Shown here piece by piece: positions 9,850 through 20,799 of a stretch of DNA of 20,799 nucleotides. The position numbers and the translations under genes were made by a program. The notes beneath the pieces were generated by a model. The model saw only the letters and a program-made list of their open reading frames with translations. It was not told where the DNA came from and made no database searches. The stretch's first letter is position 1; every line of letters begins with the position of its first letter. Origin of the DNA: a virus; IMG/VR virus record IMGVR_UViG_3300002161_000042, positions 503 through 21,301 of that record. One strand, 5' to 3'.

Positions 9850-12800
9850 TTACCTCTTCACCATTGCAAGATATTCCAGCGGAGATTTACTTGCTGGCGG
9901 GATTTTCTTTAATGAACCACCGCGCTTGTGAGCACGAATCTGTTCTCTCATCTTATCTAGCATCTTAGCCCCGGCTTTATTAGAACCGTTACCTAGAGCC
10001 GCCACCGTCTCAGCATCAAAGACGTATTCCCCATCTGCAAGCATCGCAGGGATGTCATCCGATTGACCATCCCCCGGGCCTTGCACATAAGCGCCTTTCC
10101 TGAAATCCATTCTTGGCTTACCCGCATAGTGTACGACTGGAAGCCCTCCAGAAGCCATCAGAGGCGTTATAAGCCCCCCTGTAGCTACCATAGCCTCTTC
10201 CTCATCCTGTAACCCAAGGACTGAAGCCACTTCATTGGGTTCACCATAACTAAAGTACGGCATGGCTCTTTCCTGTTCTTCCTGTTTCGGTTCTTGTTCC
10301 GGCTGAGTCAAACCTATTTGCTTTTGGAATGCAGCTAGAGGACTTACAAACTCATCCTTAGTAGCCTCCCCAGTCGTCAATCCTTTTAACGGCGGCAAAG
10401 CCGTTGTAGTCGGAGCAGTGCCCAAAGCCCCCAACCCGCCTAATATTCCGGCTCCGGCAGCTCCACTGAAAATTGAAGTTCCAAGATTAAGAAGAGACCG
10501 TTGCCTGCCGGTTTCCTCTGCTTGTTTCCTCGCCTCTTCGTCAAGCTTCTTTTGTTCTTCTGCTAGTTTTCTTTGTTCTTCTTCAGCCTTGAGTCGATCT
10601 TGTTCGGCTTTAGTAAGAGCAGCAATTTGCTTTTCTAATTCCCCGGCTTGTTTTTGGGCTTCGCCCTGATACCTCTCAATGACCGAATAGATGCCTGTAG
10701 CGGGACTAGATTCGTTTTCAGGGGTATCGGGATTGTCAGCAACACTAGGTTTGCCAACCGTTGTAGATACTGTTCTATCTACATCAGCAGGAGATGCAGA
10801 AGCTGGCAACAACGAAAGCGCAGTATTAACAACGGCTTTAACGTCAGAAATACTAAGGCCGGGGTTTTCTGACATAACGTCAGCAAAAATTCTTCTAACG
10901 TCTTCCTCAGAAAGCCCCGCGGGGAACTTAATCTCTGACACGATCCCGCGAACCTGCTCTTCCGTTAATGACGGCTGTGTAGACACCCCTGCACCGCTAC
11001 CAGTGCCCGTCCCAGTGGCGGTACTTGTTGCAGCCCCTGTACCCGTAGCGGCTTCGGTAGAAACACCCGTCCCTGTGGCCGCACCCGGCACTACATTAGT
11101 TGCCGTCCCAGTGCCTGTTGCAGCGCCTGTATCTACAACTGTTGAGCTACCTGTTCCTGAAACAACGTTTGTCGGAGTACCTGTAGCGCCACTATCGGCA
11201 ACAACACCAGTATTAACCTGAGTAACGACAGGCCCAGAGGGAATTGACGGCGGGGTGTAACGGGGAAATTCTTTCGGCCACGTTATCGGCGGGCCTGAAT
11301 CATCAGGAGGTATATAGCGCGGTGGCTGAGTTGGTACAACCGGCAGTTCGGGCGGGACATATATAAGAGGTGGTTCATTGCGAGGGGAAGGGGTATCACC
11401 TTTTGGCTTTGTTTGCTCGGTCGTTATATCCGGTTGAGTGACGACAGGCGCAGGAGGGATTGACGGCGGGGTGTAACGGGGAAGTTCTTTCGGCCACGTT
11501 ATCGGCGGGCCTGAATCCGGCGGGGGCGTATAGCGAGGCGGTTGAGGTGCAACAACCGGCAGCGTGGGCGGCACATAGACAAGAGGCGGTTCATTGCGAG
11601 GAGAGGGTCTAGTAACATCTCCCGCTGGGGTAGATCCACCAACCTGCGTAACCGTTGTAGAAGCGTCACCCGTAGATTTCGTGTCGCTCTGCGTAGCCGC
11701 AGTATCTGCCGCTTTCGGTTGGATATTAGTTGTATCAACCTTCAACGGCTCTGTCGGCTTAGTATCTAACGGGGGCACATCAACCGGCTTAACAGGAGTT
11801 ACATTAACGGGTTTTGGAGGCGTTACATCAACAGGCTTAGTTTCCGTTTTAGCTACCAGACTAGTATCAGCGGGTATTTGTGCGGGGACTTGCAATGCCT
11901 CAGCAGACTTGGCTGCATCCGCCGCCACCATTCTAGTTTGAACTTCTGTCTGTATATCCGGCGGAAGCTCAGTTAAATCAATGATGACCTTGGACTCGTT
12001 GTCCATAATCTTTTGGCGACCATCAGCAAACAAAAACAAACTGAACCCGTTGTTCATGTCATAGGTCGTCGTTCCAGTCCCAGTATCAACGGCTGCTACA
12101 GAAAATGGCACAAACCCTAATGACTCCCCCGCGCCTTTGCCAAAGAAAGTTGATCCACCCGTCTCAGGCGGCGTAGTAGATGTTCCAACGCTAACAACAC
12201 CAGCCTTTTGATCATCCGTCACACCAGTTTTAGTAACATCCGCAGTTTTTTCACCAGAAGACTCCCCTAGATCGGTAGGCTTAACAGCGTTGCCTCGGAG
12301 CATCTCAGCAAAATTCGGGTTCTTAGCTTGTTCGTTTACTAGGGTCTCTTCAATGATGTCATCAGAGATCCCGGCATCACGCATCCGCTTAACGACTGCA
12401 TCAAGACCTTCAATTTCTGATTGCAGCCAAACCTGCGTATGTCCCGGCTGTAATGCTCTTTTGAATCGATCTGGCTCTTCAACCGCATCCGTCGCAATCT
12501 GTCCCGACGATGCTACTTGCACAAAAGGAGCGATTTGTCCAGAACCAATCAAATCAGATTGTCGTTGAATCTCATCCGCTAGCGGGTCTGCACTTGACAA
12601 CTTTTGCAGACTCATCGGAACTTCACCCGGGATAAACCCCGGAGCTAGTTGTCTTGTAGGCTGGTTAGGATCAGAGATAAAGCTTTCCCGACGAATCGTC
12701 GGCCCCATGTCAGGAGGCCCAACGGCCCCCATCGCCGGATCTAGCGACGGGATCGTTCTGGGAGCCTCATTAGCAGATCCAAAGTCCTCCGGCTGTGCGG

Positions 12801-14298
12801 CAGGAGTAGGCGTACTGGCTGATCCAAAATCTTCAGGTTGTGCAGCAGTCGGTTGTTTTAATGTGGCCGCAAAGTCGGACTGAGCCTGTGATACAGCCCT
12901 TTTAACTAACTCTTGGTCTAAAGGCTTGCCAGATATTAACGACCCAATAGTCGTTGTTACTAAAGCCTGCTGGCCCGGAGTCAGATCAACAAACTTCTTC
13001 CCACCAGATTCAAATTGCGAAGTTCCAAGCGTTACCGCCCCTTGAAGAGTCGCAGCAGAAATCTTGTCACTCAAACTGCCTTCGGTGTTCAACCCAGCCT
13101 GAATAGCCTGAGTGACCGCACTCTTGATCTTTGGATCCTTAACATCACTAAACCCCGGGATACTGTCTGAAATCAGATTAAAAGCTTCCCCGGTAGCGGC
13201 ACCTAAACCCGCGGCTGTCACATCTTGACCAACCACCGCCGCTCTGGTCATCGCGGAACCAATAGAGGTTGCAAACTTCTGCCCAGCAGGGGAGTCAAAA
13301 ATCCCCTTGGCTGCATCTCCTATCACATCACCAAGTTGCGCCCCTAACAGCGTCCCCGCGCTCGCTAACACCCCTTGTTTAATGTCTCCCGTTAATACGG
13401 AAGTCAGAACACCTGAACCAATAGCCCCCAGCGTGGCAGGAGCTAACGCGGCAGCAGCGGCTTGACCAATAGCCATCTCTGCTACAAACGCACCAATTGC
13501 TTGACCAATCCCCGGAATAGCCAATGACGCTATAGCTACAAACGGGGCAATGTCTTTAACATCAAAGTCCGAACTTGACGGCCCCGGCGTTGAATAGAAC
13601 ACCGGTATTCCGTTGACCATCGAAATGTTTAACGATGTGTTTTTGCCAGCAAAAGACCCACCAAAAATATACTGCTCATCCGTAGGAGCAATTGTTGAGT
13701 TAGCGTATATGTACGACGCATCGTGACCTGAGTTGAGAGGTTGACCACTGTTTTTGTTATACAACTGCTTGCCGGTAACAACGCCGTCTTCTTTTATTTC
13801 TCTTTCACCAATATCGGCTACGTCTCCGATGCCGCTCCGTACAAGCAACTCTGCCATGTACCGAGTTGCGGCATCAATCCCGCCCATGTCACCAATAGAG
13901 CCTGTGTAGTATTTTTCCGTACCAAAGTTTTTGCGTTGTTCTGAAATCTGTTGAGCAACATTGTTAATTGCGGCAATACTTAATCGAGCACCATCAGGAG
14001 ACTCTGTATATAGTTCTGGCAACTCCGTGTTGACAAACCAGTTTGGATTAGTTGACAGAGTTTCCATCAACTTTAAGGTTGTATACCCAGATCCAGTAAC
14101 ACCTTCCGGCTTAGGAAAGAATTTGTCATACGCGCCCGTACTTGCAGCAGAAGTGGCGTCTACAAATCTTTGAGCTATCGTTAAATCGGTATCGTCTACG
14201 CGACCGTCTTTATTGAGGTCTCCGTATTCATAACCTCTATGACGGAAATTGTTCCGAAATCGATAGATCTCTTCTCTAGGAGGGCCAAAGATTTGCAT
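9850..14298 (-). CDS. Giant modular virion protein with dockerin-like calcium loop, 1482 aa
   Basis: Domains in order: (a) residues 26-48, GDLNKDGRVDDTDLTIAQRF, one dockerin type I/EF-hand loop with calcium ligands D27, N29, D31, D35 and D38; (b) an unknown domain to about 240; (c) a Gly/Ala-rich hydrophobic region at about 245-345 (VAIASLAIPGIGQAIGAFV, then LGAIGSGVLTSVLTG) that could insert into or cross membranes; (d) repeats of AAQPEDFGSA near 485-510; (e) a Thr/Pro/Lys-rich stretch with PVDVTPP-like units and a duplicated proline-rich block at about 898-1026; (f) Thr/Gly/Ala low complexity at about 1040-1100; (g) a coiled coil at about 1203-1270; (h) a C-terminal domain from about 1385 with GPGDGQSDDIPAMLADGEYV, a segment recurrent at the ends of large phage tail and virion proteins. 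Size and layout fit an ejected, tape-measure-like or internal virion protein. No lytic enzyme domain was recognised. Start: ATG with AGGA seven bases upstream. Confidence 0.7.
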   Translation of the reverse strand: MQIFGPPREEIYRFRNNFRHRGYEYGDLNKDGRVDDTDLTIAQRFVDATSAASTGAYDKFFPKPEGVTGSGYTTLKLMETLSTNPNWFVNTELPELYTESPDGARLSIAAINNVAQQISEQRKNFGTEKYYTGSIGDMGGIDAATRYMAELLVRSGIGDVADIGEREIKEDGVVTGKQLYNKNSGQPLNSGHDASYIYANSTIAPTDEQYIFGGSFAGKNTSLNISMVNGIPVFYSTPGPSSSDFDVKDIAPFVAIASLAIPGIGQAIGAFVAEMAIGQAAAAALAPATLGAIGSGVLTSVLTGDIKQGVLASAGTLLGAQLGDVIGDAAKGIFDSPAGQKFATSIGSAMTRAAVVGQDVTAAGLGAATGEAFNLISDSIPGFSDVKDPKIKSAVTQAIQAGLNTEGSLSDKISAATLQGAVTLGTSQFESGGKKFVDLTPGQQALVTTTIGSLISGKPLDQELVKRAVSQAQSDFAATLKQPTAAQPEDFGSASTPTPAAQPEDFGSANEAPRTIPSLDPAMGAVGPPDMGPTIRRESFISDPNQPTRQLAPGFIPGEVPMSLQKLSSADPLADEIQRQSDLIGSGQIAPFVQVASSGQIATDAVEEPDRFKRALQPGHTQVWLQSEIEGLDAVVKRMRDAGISDDIIEETLVNEQAKNPNFAEMLRGNAVKPTDLGESSGEKTADVTKTGVTDDQKAGVVSVGTSTTPPETGGSTFFGKGAGESLGFVPFSVAAVDTGTGTTTYDMNNGFSLFLFADGRQKIMDNESKVIIDLTELPPDIQTEVQTRMVAADAAKSAEALQVPAQIPADTSLVAKTETKPVDVTPPKPVNVTPVKPVDVPPLDTKPTEPLKVDTTNIQPKAADTAATQSDTKSTGDASTTVTQVGGSTPAGDVTRPSPRNEPPLVYVPPTLPVVAPQPPRYTPPPDSGPPITWPKELPRYTPPSIPPAPVVTQPDITTEQTKPKGDTPSPRNEPPLIYVPPELPVVPTQPPRYIPPDDSGPPITWPKEFPRYTPPSIPSGPVVTQVNTGVVADSGATGTPTNVVSGTGSSTVVDTGAATGTGTATNVVPGAATGTGVSTEAATGTGAATSTATGTGTGSGAGVSTQPSLTEEQVRGIVSEIKFPAGLSEEDVRRIFADVMSENPGLSISDVKAVVNTALSLLPASASPADVDRTVSTTVGKPSVADNPDTPENESSPATGIYSVIERYQGEAQKQAGELEKQIAALTKAEQDRLKAEEEQRKLAEEQKKLDEEARKQAEETGRQRSLLNLGTSIFSGAAGAGILGGLGALGTAPTTTALPPLKGLTTGEATKDEFVSPLAAFQKQIGLTQPEQEPKQEEQERAMPYFSYGEPNEVASVLGLQDEEEAMVATGGLITPLMASGGLPVVHYAGKPRMDFRKGAYVQGPGDGQSDDIPAMLADGEYVFDAETVAALGNGSNKAGAKMLDKMREQIRAHKRGGSLKKIPPASKSPLEYLAMVKR
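11222..11605 (-). repeat. Tandem repeat, 216-bp period, two copies of about 168 bp
   Basis: Bases 11222-11389 and 11438-11605 are close copies offset by exactly 216 bases (72 codons), so the reading frame of the 1482-residue protein is kept. Each copy encodes a block with SPRNEPPL, PPRY, SGPPITWPKE and PRYTPPSIP. The 48 bases between the copies are not repeated. The proline-rich block probably forms a stiff extended linker. Differences between copies are mostly single bases, suggesting fairly recent duplication. Confidence 0.85.
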
Positions 14299-18680: not shown

Positions 18681-19072
18681 CACCACACCTTTTTCTTAAT
18701 AGACTCAGGCTGCGGGACATACTGCTTACCTTGCCGCATCCCCTCGCGCTTTGCTCGCGTTGTGGCGGCGTATTCCGAAGCGGTTAGCTTCTCTCTTGCT
18801 CGCCGGGGGAGATAACGCTCACCCGTAGCCTCAGAACCCTGCGTAGATGGCTTTCCAGATCGAGTACCCCAATCTTCCTTAGACCATCTAGATAACGAAT
18901 TGTCCGCCTTTTTTGGCCCTTTGTAACCACCCCCGGAAGATTTGTACTTCTGAGTGGCTAACTGTGCCTTCCTAGCTGACCATTGCCCCGGGCTACCACC
19001 CTTCCCAGAAGCTTTGACTTGAGAAACAATTCTCTTCCACTTCTCAGGATTGGACTTGACCGCGGAACTCAT
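18680..19072 (-). CDS. Basic DUF5872-like protein, 130 aa
   Basis: A strongly basic protein in two parts. Residues 9-50 contain PEKWKRIVSQVKASGKGGSP and GQWSARKAQLATQKYKSSGG. Residues 58-125 contain SLSRWSKEDWGTRSGKPSTQ followed by GERYLPRRAREKLTASEYAA and TTRAKREGMRQGKQY. The WxxxxWGTxSGKPS...ATGERYLP signature is that of DUF5872, seen in diverse large viruses and phages and of unknown function. High Lys/Arg content suggests nucleic-acid binding, perhaps packaged in the virion. Starts in an ATGA overlap, with AAGG seven bases ahead. Confidence 0.75.
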   Translation of the reverse strand: MSSAVKSNPEKWKRIVSQVKASGKGGSPGQWSARKAQLATQKYKSSGGGYKGPKKADNSLSRWSKEDWGTRSGKPSTQGSEATGERYLPRRAREKLTASEYAATTRAKREGMRQGKQYVPQPESIKKKVW

Positions 19073-19290
19073 TTATCTACCTTGTTGTCCAACTTATCAA
19101 AGATCCTAGCTAACATACTTTTGATATCTGCGATATCTGCTCTGTAGTCGTCTCTAGTGACATACTGAAGAGGCAAGTCAGCAATCCGATCCTCTATTCG
19201 GATGATCGAGCGCGAAAGGGAGTTGAGAATCCAACCCCCAAACGCGCCAGCAACACCAAAACCGATGTTGATCAGGATCTGTGGATCCAT
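19069..19290 (-). CDS. One-TM coiled-coil protein, possible holin or lysis accessory, 73 aa
   Basis: The start is the ATG reading MDPQILINIG, with TGGAG six bases upstream; it forms a TGATG junction with the preceding micro-ORF. Residues 4-24 (QILINIGFGVAGAFGGWILN) form one transmembrane segment rich in glycine. The rest is a charged coiled-coil-like helix (RSIIRIEDRIADLPLQYVTR, then DIADIKSMLARIFDKLDNK). One TM plus a short soluble helix is compatible with a small holin, antiholin or membrane anchor. Similar proteins occur in environmental phages near lysis and tail genes; none is characterised to my knowledge. The 3-TM holin nearby makes an accessory role more likely. Confidence 0.65.
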   Translation of the reverse strand: MDPQILINIGFGVAGAFGGWILNSLSRSIIRIEDRIADLPLQYVTRDDYRADIADIKSMLARIFDKLDNKVDK

Positions 19291-19352
19291 CAAAAACTCC
19301 ACGAAGTCTTTGGTTTGACCTTCTTCATAGCTTTATGAACCCACAGTTCCAT
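19290..19352 (-). CDS. Possible 20-residue basic micro-ORF
   Basis: The ATG has GGAG five bases upstream and lies two bases after the stop of the 48-residue gene. The frame encodes MELWVHKAMKKVKPKTSWSF and ends in a TGATG junction with the one-TM gene. It is rich in lysine and aromatic residues. The ribosome site and the exact junctions on both sides suggest that it is translated, either as a peptide or to couple translation of the next gene. At this length it could be chance. Confidence 0.45.
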   Translation of the reverse strand: MELWVHKAMKKVKPKTSWSF

Positions 19353-19354
19353 GA

Positions 19355-19501
19355 TTACTCCGTTCCGCCAACCTTCTCGGCTTCGGGGGCCGCTGCCTGC
19401 TGAACGCCTGCGATGAGATTAGCTACCTCAACATAGGGCCGACTCCCAAGATACTGAAGGATGGCATTGATAAGACTTACAGGTACATTGATCGTTTCCA
19501 T
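19355..19501 (-). CDS. Small late protein, 48 aa
   Basis: The ATG has GGAG six bases upstream. The frame reads METINVPVSLINAILQYLGS, then RPYVEVANLIAGVQQAAAPE and ends KVGGTE. The first 35 residues form a short strand and amphipathic helices around a conserved-looking QYLGxxPYxEVAxLI pattern, as in small phage proteins of unknown function. It fills what otherwise would be a gap of more than 200 bases between the endolysin and the one-TM gene and matches its strand. It is below the usual length cut-off. Confidence 0.7.
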   Translation of the reverse strand: METINVPVSLINAILQYLGSRPYVEVANLIAGVQQAAAPEAEKVGGTE

Positions 19502-19516
19502 TTGACTCTCCGTTAT

Positions 19517-19531: not shown

Positions 19532-20005
19532 CTATGATTTTGCCATATACATGGCTTTTTCATCTTTTCTTCTTGTTACTAACCCCGGAAGCACCTTCCC
19601 CGCCGACAGGTTCCACTTCAAGAACTCCTCAGCCGCCCCCTCAAAATCGCCCCGGTTATGTTTGGCCCGAAGGGTAGACGCCTGAAGGTTCCCTAGTCCA
19701 ACATTGAAAGCGAACGAAGTGAGTGCCAGATGGCGATTGCTAAGATCATCCACAGTACATAGTCGGCGTACCCCCGCCAGAAACCGCGCCAGATCCTGCT
19801 GGAGAATGCTGTCCACCTCTTCATCCGTCAGCCTCCGATCCCAACCGGCAGGAATGGCGAGGCCAAGTCTTCCATCAAACGGTACGCTAATGTGGCGAGG
19901 ATCGATGACGTGACCAACACCGACAGTCCACAGACGAGCAGGGCAACGGTAAGGCTCATGCCTGACTCCTTCATGATGCCGGAGCATCTTTAGTAGATCG
20001 TTCAC
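19532..20005 (-). CDS. Endolysin, T4-lysozyme-type muramidase (GH24)
   Basis: This 157-residue enzyme cleaves the glycan strands of peptidoglycan at the end of infection. The catalytic set follows the E-8aa-(D/C)-5aa-T pattern of P21/P22-type endolysins: E12 in HHEGV, C21 in PYRCPA, T27 in LWTVGVGH. Usual length is 145-180 residues. Later family features are visible too (LTDEEVDSILQQDL, then ALTSFAFNVGLGN and LPGLVTRRKDEKAMY). There is no N-terminal membrane or signal segment, so it needs a holin to reach the wall. The start is a GTG in a GTGA overlap with the holin gene; an internal ATG six codons later would remove part of the first helix. Confidence 0.9.
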   Translation of the reverse strand: MNDLLKMLRHHEGVRHEPYRCPARLWTVGVGHVIDPRHISVPFDGRLGLAIPAGWDRRLTDEEVDSILQQDLARFLAGVRRLCTVDDLSNRHLALTSFAFNVGLGNLQASTLRAKHNRGDFEGAAEEFLKWNLSAGKVLPGLVTRRKDEKAMYMAKS

Positions 20006-20508
20006 TTTTTAGCGAACGCCTGTGACCCGAACCAGAAACTGATGATCGACGCCCAGATGATCTGAGTATCAGCATCCCACAGGTTAGCAATCACCTCAGC
20101 AAACGGGGTTCCAAGGTGCCACGCATACGTCGCACCGAAGATGTTGATGAAACAGAGCAGCGCAAACATCCCGTAAGTGATGACGGGACGAACTAAGGCT
20201 CTTGCATTGATGACCCACCTCGATGCGCCTTCCCCGATAGCAATGTCGTGAGCGTACAGAGCTTGCTTCTCTTGTAGAGCGATCTGCTGAGTCGAGACTT
20301 CTGCGTTGATCGTAAGCTGATCCGTCCTAATTTCCTCGACCCTAGCCTGCGCCTCAAACCCGGCCTTCCTGAGTTCCAGTTCCCGCTCGATCTGCATCTG
20401 AGCCAGTGCAATCTCGTGCTTCTTGTCAGACTTGTCTTGGAAGAAGTCGAGGAGCTTGGGCAAGCCCCCAGCGAGAAAGGACAGCAGGGTTGTGAATAAC
20501 GTAATCAT
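20002..20508 (-). CDS. Holin of the 3-TM (GTA-release) type
   Basis: This 168-residue membrane protein has a hydrophobic N-terminus (residues 1-22, LFTTLLSFLAGGLPKLLDFF), a long charged helix or coiled coil (about 25-90), then two C-terminal membrane segments (about 108-130, ITYGMFALLCFINIFGATYA; and about 148-164, IIWASIISFWFGSQAF). This order and the WASIISFWFGSxA ending match the 3-TM holin family known from gene transfer agents and phages. It would open the inner membrane for the endolysin encoded directly downstream (4-base overlap). The start ATG overlaps the stop of the 24-residue membrane peptide gene as ATGA. Confidence 0.85.
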   Translation of the reverse strand: MITLFTTLLSFLAGGLPKLLDFFQDKSDKKHEIALAQMQIERELELRKAGFEAQARVEEIRTDQLTINAEVSTQQIALQEKQALYAHDIAIGEGASRWVINARALVRPVITYGMFALLCFINIFGATYAWHLGTPFAEVIANLWDADTQIIWASIISFWFGSQAFAKK

Positions 20509-20579
20509 CTAGCGATCTCCGAAAGGGCCAACATTACAACGGCAATCAACAGAACGATGATGCCGAAGATGTACTTCAT
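20505..20579 (-). CDS. 24-residue single-TM peptide, lysis-linked micro-ORF
   Basis: The frame encodes MKYIFGIIVLLIAVVMLALS and ends EIAR: a single hydrophobic segment with a basic residue at each end. Both its start and its stop form exact ATGA overlaps, with the gene before it and the holin after it. This two-sided coupling is the main evidence that it is a gene, since it is far below normal length limits and its ribosome site is weak. It could modulate the holin (antiholin-like) or act as a tiny membrane protein. No family recognised. Confidence 0.65.
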   Translation of the reverse strand: MKYIFGIIVLLIAVVMLALSEIAR

Positions 20580-20799
20580 TGCAGATTAAACGTCAGGTTT
20601 TTGTGCCGTGGGTAAGTCACCACCTTCTCCCCTTCTGGGCACTTGTACTTGATCGTTGCCAGCAAAGTAGCCTTCCCCGGCGCAGGTGTTTCTTTCAGCG
20701 TCAGGTAATAGGTAAAGGTATCAATGTCCGGGCCAGCAGGCCCAGAGAACTTGGGGTTTGATGACACCGCTTCTAAAACTACGCCTTTGCCATCTCTAA
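20576..20799 (-). CDS. Hypothetical late protein, 5' end cut by window edge
   Basis: The frame stays open to the right edge of the window (RDGKGVVLEAVSSNPKFSG...), so the gene very likely starts outside; a GTG at 20767 is a possible but poorly supported internal start. At least 73 residues are visible. The segment DIDTFTYYLTLKETPAPGKA followed by LLATIKYKCPEGEKVV is strand-rich, like a small beta domain. It precedes the lysis genes in transcript order. Function unknown. Confidence 0.6.
   Translation of the reverse strand, partial: RDGKGVVLEAVSSNPKFSGPAGPDIDTFTYYLTLKETPAPGKATLLATIKYKCPEGEKVVTYPRHKNLTFNLQ

Follow-up and report, generated by a model that had tools for sequence, protein, structure and literature searches.

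A 24-codon single-helix gene exchanged between phage lysis cassettes, with a possible role beside the holin

The window is a 20,799-nucleotide stretch of viral DNA (G000:C1:503-21301), taken from a virus record of 21,301 bp, of which it forms the right-hand part. Near its right-hand end a very short gene shares bases with both of its neighbours. The features of this region are listed below.

20576..20799, minus strand: upstream gene of type A, of which the window has just the 3' part; contig L009/L096 carries all 150 aa
20576..20579, minus strand: ATGA overlap of the tiny gene with the upstream type A gene
20505..20579, minus strand: tiny gene, 24 codons from ATG to TGA, encoding a single transmembrane helix, MKYIFGIIVLLIAVVMLALSEIAR
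20517..20520, minus strand: GGAG, likely ribosome-binding site of H1, within the Ser/Ala-Glu codons of the tiny gene and 8 nt before the H1 ATG
20505..20508, minus strand: ATGA overlap of the tiny gene with the gene of the 168-aa holin-like protein H1
20002..20508, minus strand: H1, 168-aa holin-like protein, phrog_6637 (unknown function), predicted to be all-helical
19532..20005, minus strand: endolysin, T4-type lysozyme (PF00959), GTGA-coupled to H1

A preliminary description of this DNA had reported a 24-residue single-transmembrane frame held between two ATGA overlaps, and both junctions read as ATGA again on re-examination. The ATG of the tiny gene (20579-20577) shares bases with the TGA of the upstream frame (20578-20576), and its own TGA (20507-20505) shares bases with the ATG of H1 (20508-20506). 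The encoded peptide has one hydrophobic segment, with a 17-residue Kyte-Doolittle maximum of 3.11. The upstream gene is incomplete in the window because the contig ends there; a longer contig, L009, is identical to the window across 3,700 nt and gives the gene order B - A - tiny gene - H1 - lysozyme, in which B is a further membrane-protein gene before A. L009, L094 and L096 are one contig from the same virus as the window, and L009 is therefore not independent evidence. A spanin (i-, o- or unimolecular) was rejected as an identity for the peptide, which at 24 aa contains neither a soluble domain nor a lipobox and, in the window, has no cysteine. Frameshift fusion with the upstream gene was also rejected, since no slippery site conserved at the junctions was found by eye.

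Other minus-strand genes of the window have features of their own. A 77-aa protein (19069-19302) matches phrog_462, labelled "lipoprotein", yet it lacks cysteine and looks like a membrane anchor followed by a coiled coil. Between this gene and the lysozyme gene lies a short open reading frame of about 48 aa (METINVPVSLINAILQYLGSRPYVEV..., by eye; about 19357-19503). A 1,482-aa protein (9850-14298) contains long Pro/Thr/Val-rich repeats and has a weak dockerin-like match (E 0.012) that falls below the cut-off.

The lysozyme N-terminus, MNDLLKMLRHHEGVRHEPYR, is not hydrophobic and so lacks a signal-arrest-release helix; a pinholin working with a signal-arrest-release endolysin was rejected on this ground. 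A lysozyme of this kind, without an N-terminal hydrophobic segment, would be expected to depend on a holin forming large holes. This is probably H1, because it is translationally coupled to the lysozyme and its family appears to be remotely related to TeaA-type holins. The possible relation runs through a second holin-like family, H2, which is homologous to TeaA of phage ICP1 (37% identity across residues 1-157, E 4e-20), a protein whose holin role is experimentally supported (PMC7182436). The family profiles of H1 and H2 align in hhalign at E 9e-5 and probability 59, over 22 columns only; 2 of 31 H1 members match phrog_1544, the PHROG of H2, and one matches a PHROG labelled holin. No Pfam holin match was obtained for H1. 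Its AlphaFold model, for which only the window and IMG/VR rows served as input, is all helical and not reliable (pLDDT 72, pTM 0.31), and a viral fold search with this model returned nothing at E 0.001. The earlier designation of the gene as a holin is thus very probably correct, on the strength of the lysozyme coupling and the apparent remote family relation. H1 cassettes carry a GH24-type lysozyme, and H2 precedes a second, different endolysin that looks by eye like a GH108 muramidase.

Relatives of the tiny gene were collected from IMG/VR with peptide-profile searches, which enlarged the member set, and with an HMM scan of small open reading frames in the collected loci (membership at E below 0.01). 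These scans gave 46 nucleotide variants encoding 36 peptides with the consensus MNYIFGIIVLLxAVLMLALAEVAx. A transmembrane segment is present, with a 17-residue hydropathy maximum of about 2.4-3.3 in members of at least 23 aa. A pattern search that placed no requirement on neighbouring genes, with hits filtered for an uninterrupted frame, found family members only, each of them either in a cluster of this type or where a contig ends; the tiny gene was found only in lysis cassettes. A few copies are shortened to 16-20 aa and have lost part of the helix beside a retained holin (L234 2942, L236 239, L216 2942, L253 2534), possibly through decay or possibly as a minimal working length. A copy in L026 is longer, at 31 aa, and L200 holds two copies. 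A tblastn search of 50,697 isolated-phage records gave no match at E 10, a weak test for 24 aa, and PHROGs gave no match to the peptide, again a weak test at this length, antiholins sharing no common sequence. In bacterial genomes 10 pattern matches were found and 0 confirmed, so no host or prophage link can be drawn. The tiny genes form an apparently new family of ultra-short lysis-cassette peptides that would belong to a known kind, the small membrane regulators encoded in holin operons.

Selection on the peptide was estimated with the two ends of the gene kept apart. Codon 20 is GCG in 33 of 34 variants and codon 21 is GAG in all 34, with hardly any synonymous variation, and these two codons (GCGGAG, Ala-Glu) look as if they double as a Shine-Dalgarno site for the gene that follows. 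The near-invariant C-terminal Ala-Glu thus does not reflect protein constraint alone, and for this reason the helix region, codons 2-18, was judged separately. Among 11 variants less than 85% identical, dN/dS over these codons is 0.20 (95% interval 0.10-0.34; mean pS 0.66), a value that is only rough because synonymous distances are near saturation. None of 300 column permutations gave a ratio as low, and the other reading frames contain stops or show no such pattern. The helix codons are under purifying selection and the tiny open reading frame is a real gene family. A chance reading frame is ruled out by conservation and dN/dS, which agrees with the earlier judgement that chance origin was improbable; the frame and its hydrophobic sequence are kept in dozens of other contigs.

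The same codons bear on the idea that the mini-gene is a translational coupler or spacer that passes ribosomes on to the holin gene, supplies its Shine-Dalgarno site and encodes a functionless peptide. The ATGA at both ends and the near-invariance, even at synonymous sites, of a likely ribosome-binding site at codons 20-21 are what such a device would show, but constraint on the protein extends over codons 2-18, outside the ribosome-binding site, where synonymous sites have diverged. In addition, relatives lacking the tiny gene join the upstream gene to the holin gene directly through ATGA and a GGAG-like site, so that a coupler is not needed, and we consider this explanation improbable.

The tiny gene is exchanged as a module. 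Three types of gene lie on its left: A codes for about 150 aa, B for about 169 aa including a C-terminal helix, and C for about 135-157 aa. On its right lies one of the two diverged holin-like genes, H1 or H2, each with its own endolysin. All six of the six combinations were found with the tiny gene between them. In all contexts tabulated it begins within the TGA of the upstream gene, by ATGA in these combinations, and its junction to the next gene is ATGA or TGATG. Between L109 and L132, identity is 25% in the left gene, 95% in the tiny gene and 97% in the right gene; between L096 (the virus of the window) and L132, the corresponding values are 87%, 79% and 21%. These are natural swaps, in which unrelated DNA replaces one flank while the tiny gene and the other flank stay. 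Since the swap boundaries fall at the two ends of the tiny gene, the DNA itself could be retained as a homology patch for lysis-module exchange. This is very improbable, as synonymous sites diverge freely (pS about 0.6) under a conserved peptide, the opposite of what a patch would need.

Modularity also bears on whether the peptide could work with one of the membrane proteins encoded upstream (A, B or C) instead of with the holin, for example as an accessory of an unrecognised envelope-disruption complex. Some cassettes separate the tiny gene from the holin gene by another gene (B-tiny-A-H1, tiny-C-H1), which puts it after B and ahead of A, or ahead of C, and it is ATGA-coupled to the upstream gene whenever that gene is of type A, B or C. 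However, the tiny gene is kept beside left genes that are unrelated to one another, and also beside ones that are gutted: on that side L155 has only a short stub of gene A, and L162 a gene B with an internal deletion, with the tiny gene and its overlaps intact in both. The association of peptide sequence with the left neighbour (p 0.21) is weaker than that with holin type (p 0.06), neither being significant. A partnership with the upstream proteins is accordingly judged unlikely.

The distribution of the tiny gene among holin relatives was counted at loci with enough upstream sequence. Of the close H2 relatives 48 of 48 have it, a figure that describes this clade and not H2 holins at large because the H2 query came from a contig bearing the tiny gene, and of the close H1 relatives 13 of 25 do, L009 being one of the 13. 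Among more distant relatives it is present in 5 of 30 for H2 and 0 of 44 for H1. The preliminary description had held that a frame broken in relatives that keep the holin would speak against a regulator. This is partly what was found, since 12 of the 25 close H1 relatives lack the frame and a few copies are shortened, yet 13 of the 25 keep it. Close relatives with nearly the same holin and no tiny gene point to an optional accessory and not an obligate partner. In loci without it, A, B or C usually leads directly to the holin gene, or other small membrane proteins occupy the slot. A hydrophobic segment is present in 41 of 53 unique upstream-slot proteins for H1 and 25 of 36 for H2, type A falling slightly under the cut-off used. 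Before more distant H1 holins (many of L041-L077) the slot holds a protein of 58 aa that has one helix and a tail of charged residues (MANVATTKLVWWILIGVAICIVVGVTSMAYVETLYMRAQLKQEMKELRKLKRELKESK), and L073 has a relative of this protein before a type A gene.

The anatomy of the junctions suggests how the peptide might be made and act. Ribosomes ending the upstream membrane-protein gene would restart at the ATG of the tiny gene and then at that of the holin gene, whose Shine-Dalgarno site would lie within the tiny gene, so that translation of the two would be coupled. The product would be a bare single transmembrane helix made together with the holin, which most likely enters the inner membrane, where it would modulate or aid the assembly of the holin in the role of a small subunit, antiholin-like or co-holin-like, thereby tuning lysis time; it would be an optional accessory, swapped as a unit between cassettes. 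With modest confidence we favour this reading, a translated, mobile, single-helix micropeptide of the lysis cassette that modulates or assists the holin. The unit is conserved and shuffled before hole-forming proteins and so probably helps to set or aid the moment of host burst. The earlier proposal of a very short holin regulator, antiholin or lysis timer is plausible to this extent: the gene is real, it lies in a holin-endolysin operon next to the holin, where an antiholin gene would be expected, and its position and modular exchange fit. Its presence beside two strongly diverged holins, together with the intervening gene in some cassettes, makes a contact with one particular holin harder to argue for; the pairing with both holins and the occurrence at two positions leave room for a less specific action on the membrane. 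Members of the family might, more tentatively, be 23-24-residue mobile lysis regulators that work with more than one holin lineage, possibly twice per operon as in L200, and would then be among the shortest phage proteins controlling host lysis.

Another explanation is a self-acting membrane depolariser, in which helices oligomerise, leak ions and help to trigger the holin in the manner of a pinholin. The peptide is a bare hydrophobic helix with some Gly and Ala residues, and small single-helix peptides can be toxic alone, as with BSPM4 ORF52, which is lethal on expression (PMC11657625), and with DinQ (PMC3567139). However, the cassette offers no signal-arrest-release endolysin that could use a pinholin, and a full-size holin-like gene is always nearby, so that a depolariser seems rather improbable here and modulation or assistance of the holin remains the preferred reading.

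Tested phage systems provide partial parallels for a holin modulator. In ICP1 the gene directly upstream of teaA, arrA, is supported by experiment as an antiholin gene whose loss leads to rapid lysis (PMC7182436), so that for one phage a regulator encoded just ahead of a holin of this type has been tested. As in ICP1, a small membrane-protein gene directly precedes the TeaA-homologous holin H2; however, ArrA has 151 aa and several hydrophobic segments and bears no visible resemblance to the 24-aa peptide, which also precedes another holin lineage. ORF52 of BSPM4 (64 aa, one helix) binds and restrains its own holin and delays lysis (PMC11657625). Both it and the tiny peptide are small single-helix phage membrane proteins without known domains, ORF52 being functionally tied to a holin, whereas ORF52 has a soluble part, is encoded away from the holin gene (orf52 versus orf37) and has been tested experimentally. 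Tiny, conserved phage reading frames that gene callers miss, as this family is, are also collected in catalogues of small-gene predictions (Fremin et al. 2022, as cited in PMC11323111). Lysis regulators this small easily escape notice, since no homology gives them away and gene callers set their minimum length higher. KdpF and CydX are small single-helix operon subunits of roughly 30-40 aa that accompany a larger membrane protein. The tiny gene likewise encodes a helix and shares its operon with the gene of a larger membrane protein, whereas KdpF and CydX belong to bacterial enzyme complexes and the analogy is one of design only.

Comparison across this family clearly shows a 24-codon gene that is under selection and is exchanged between phage lysis cassettes, and it gives a minimal, testable model of how one helix could adjust the timing of a holin. 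It would be worth searching phage operons for further gaps locked by ATGA. A second, unrelated tiny membrane open reading frame of 29-31 aa (e.g. MNEDEKDVAALGFVIAIAGFAICVLLAVIWN) adjoins the type C gene upstream in L270 (about 1370-1462) and L272 (about 2055-2150), and the tiny-helix theme at these junctions may therefore be wider.
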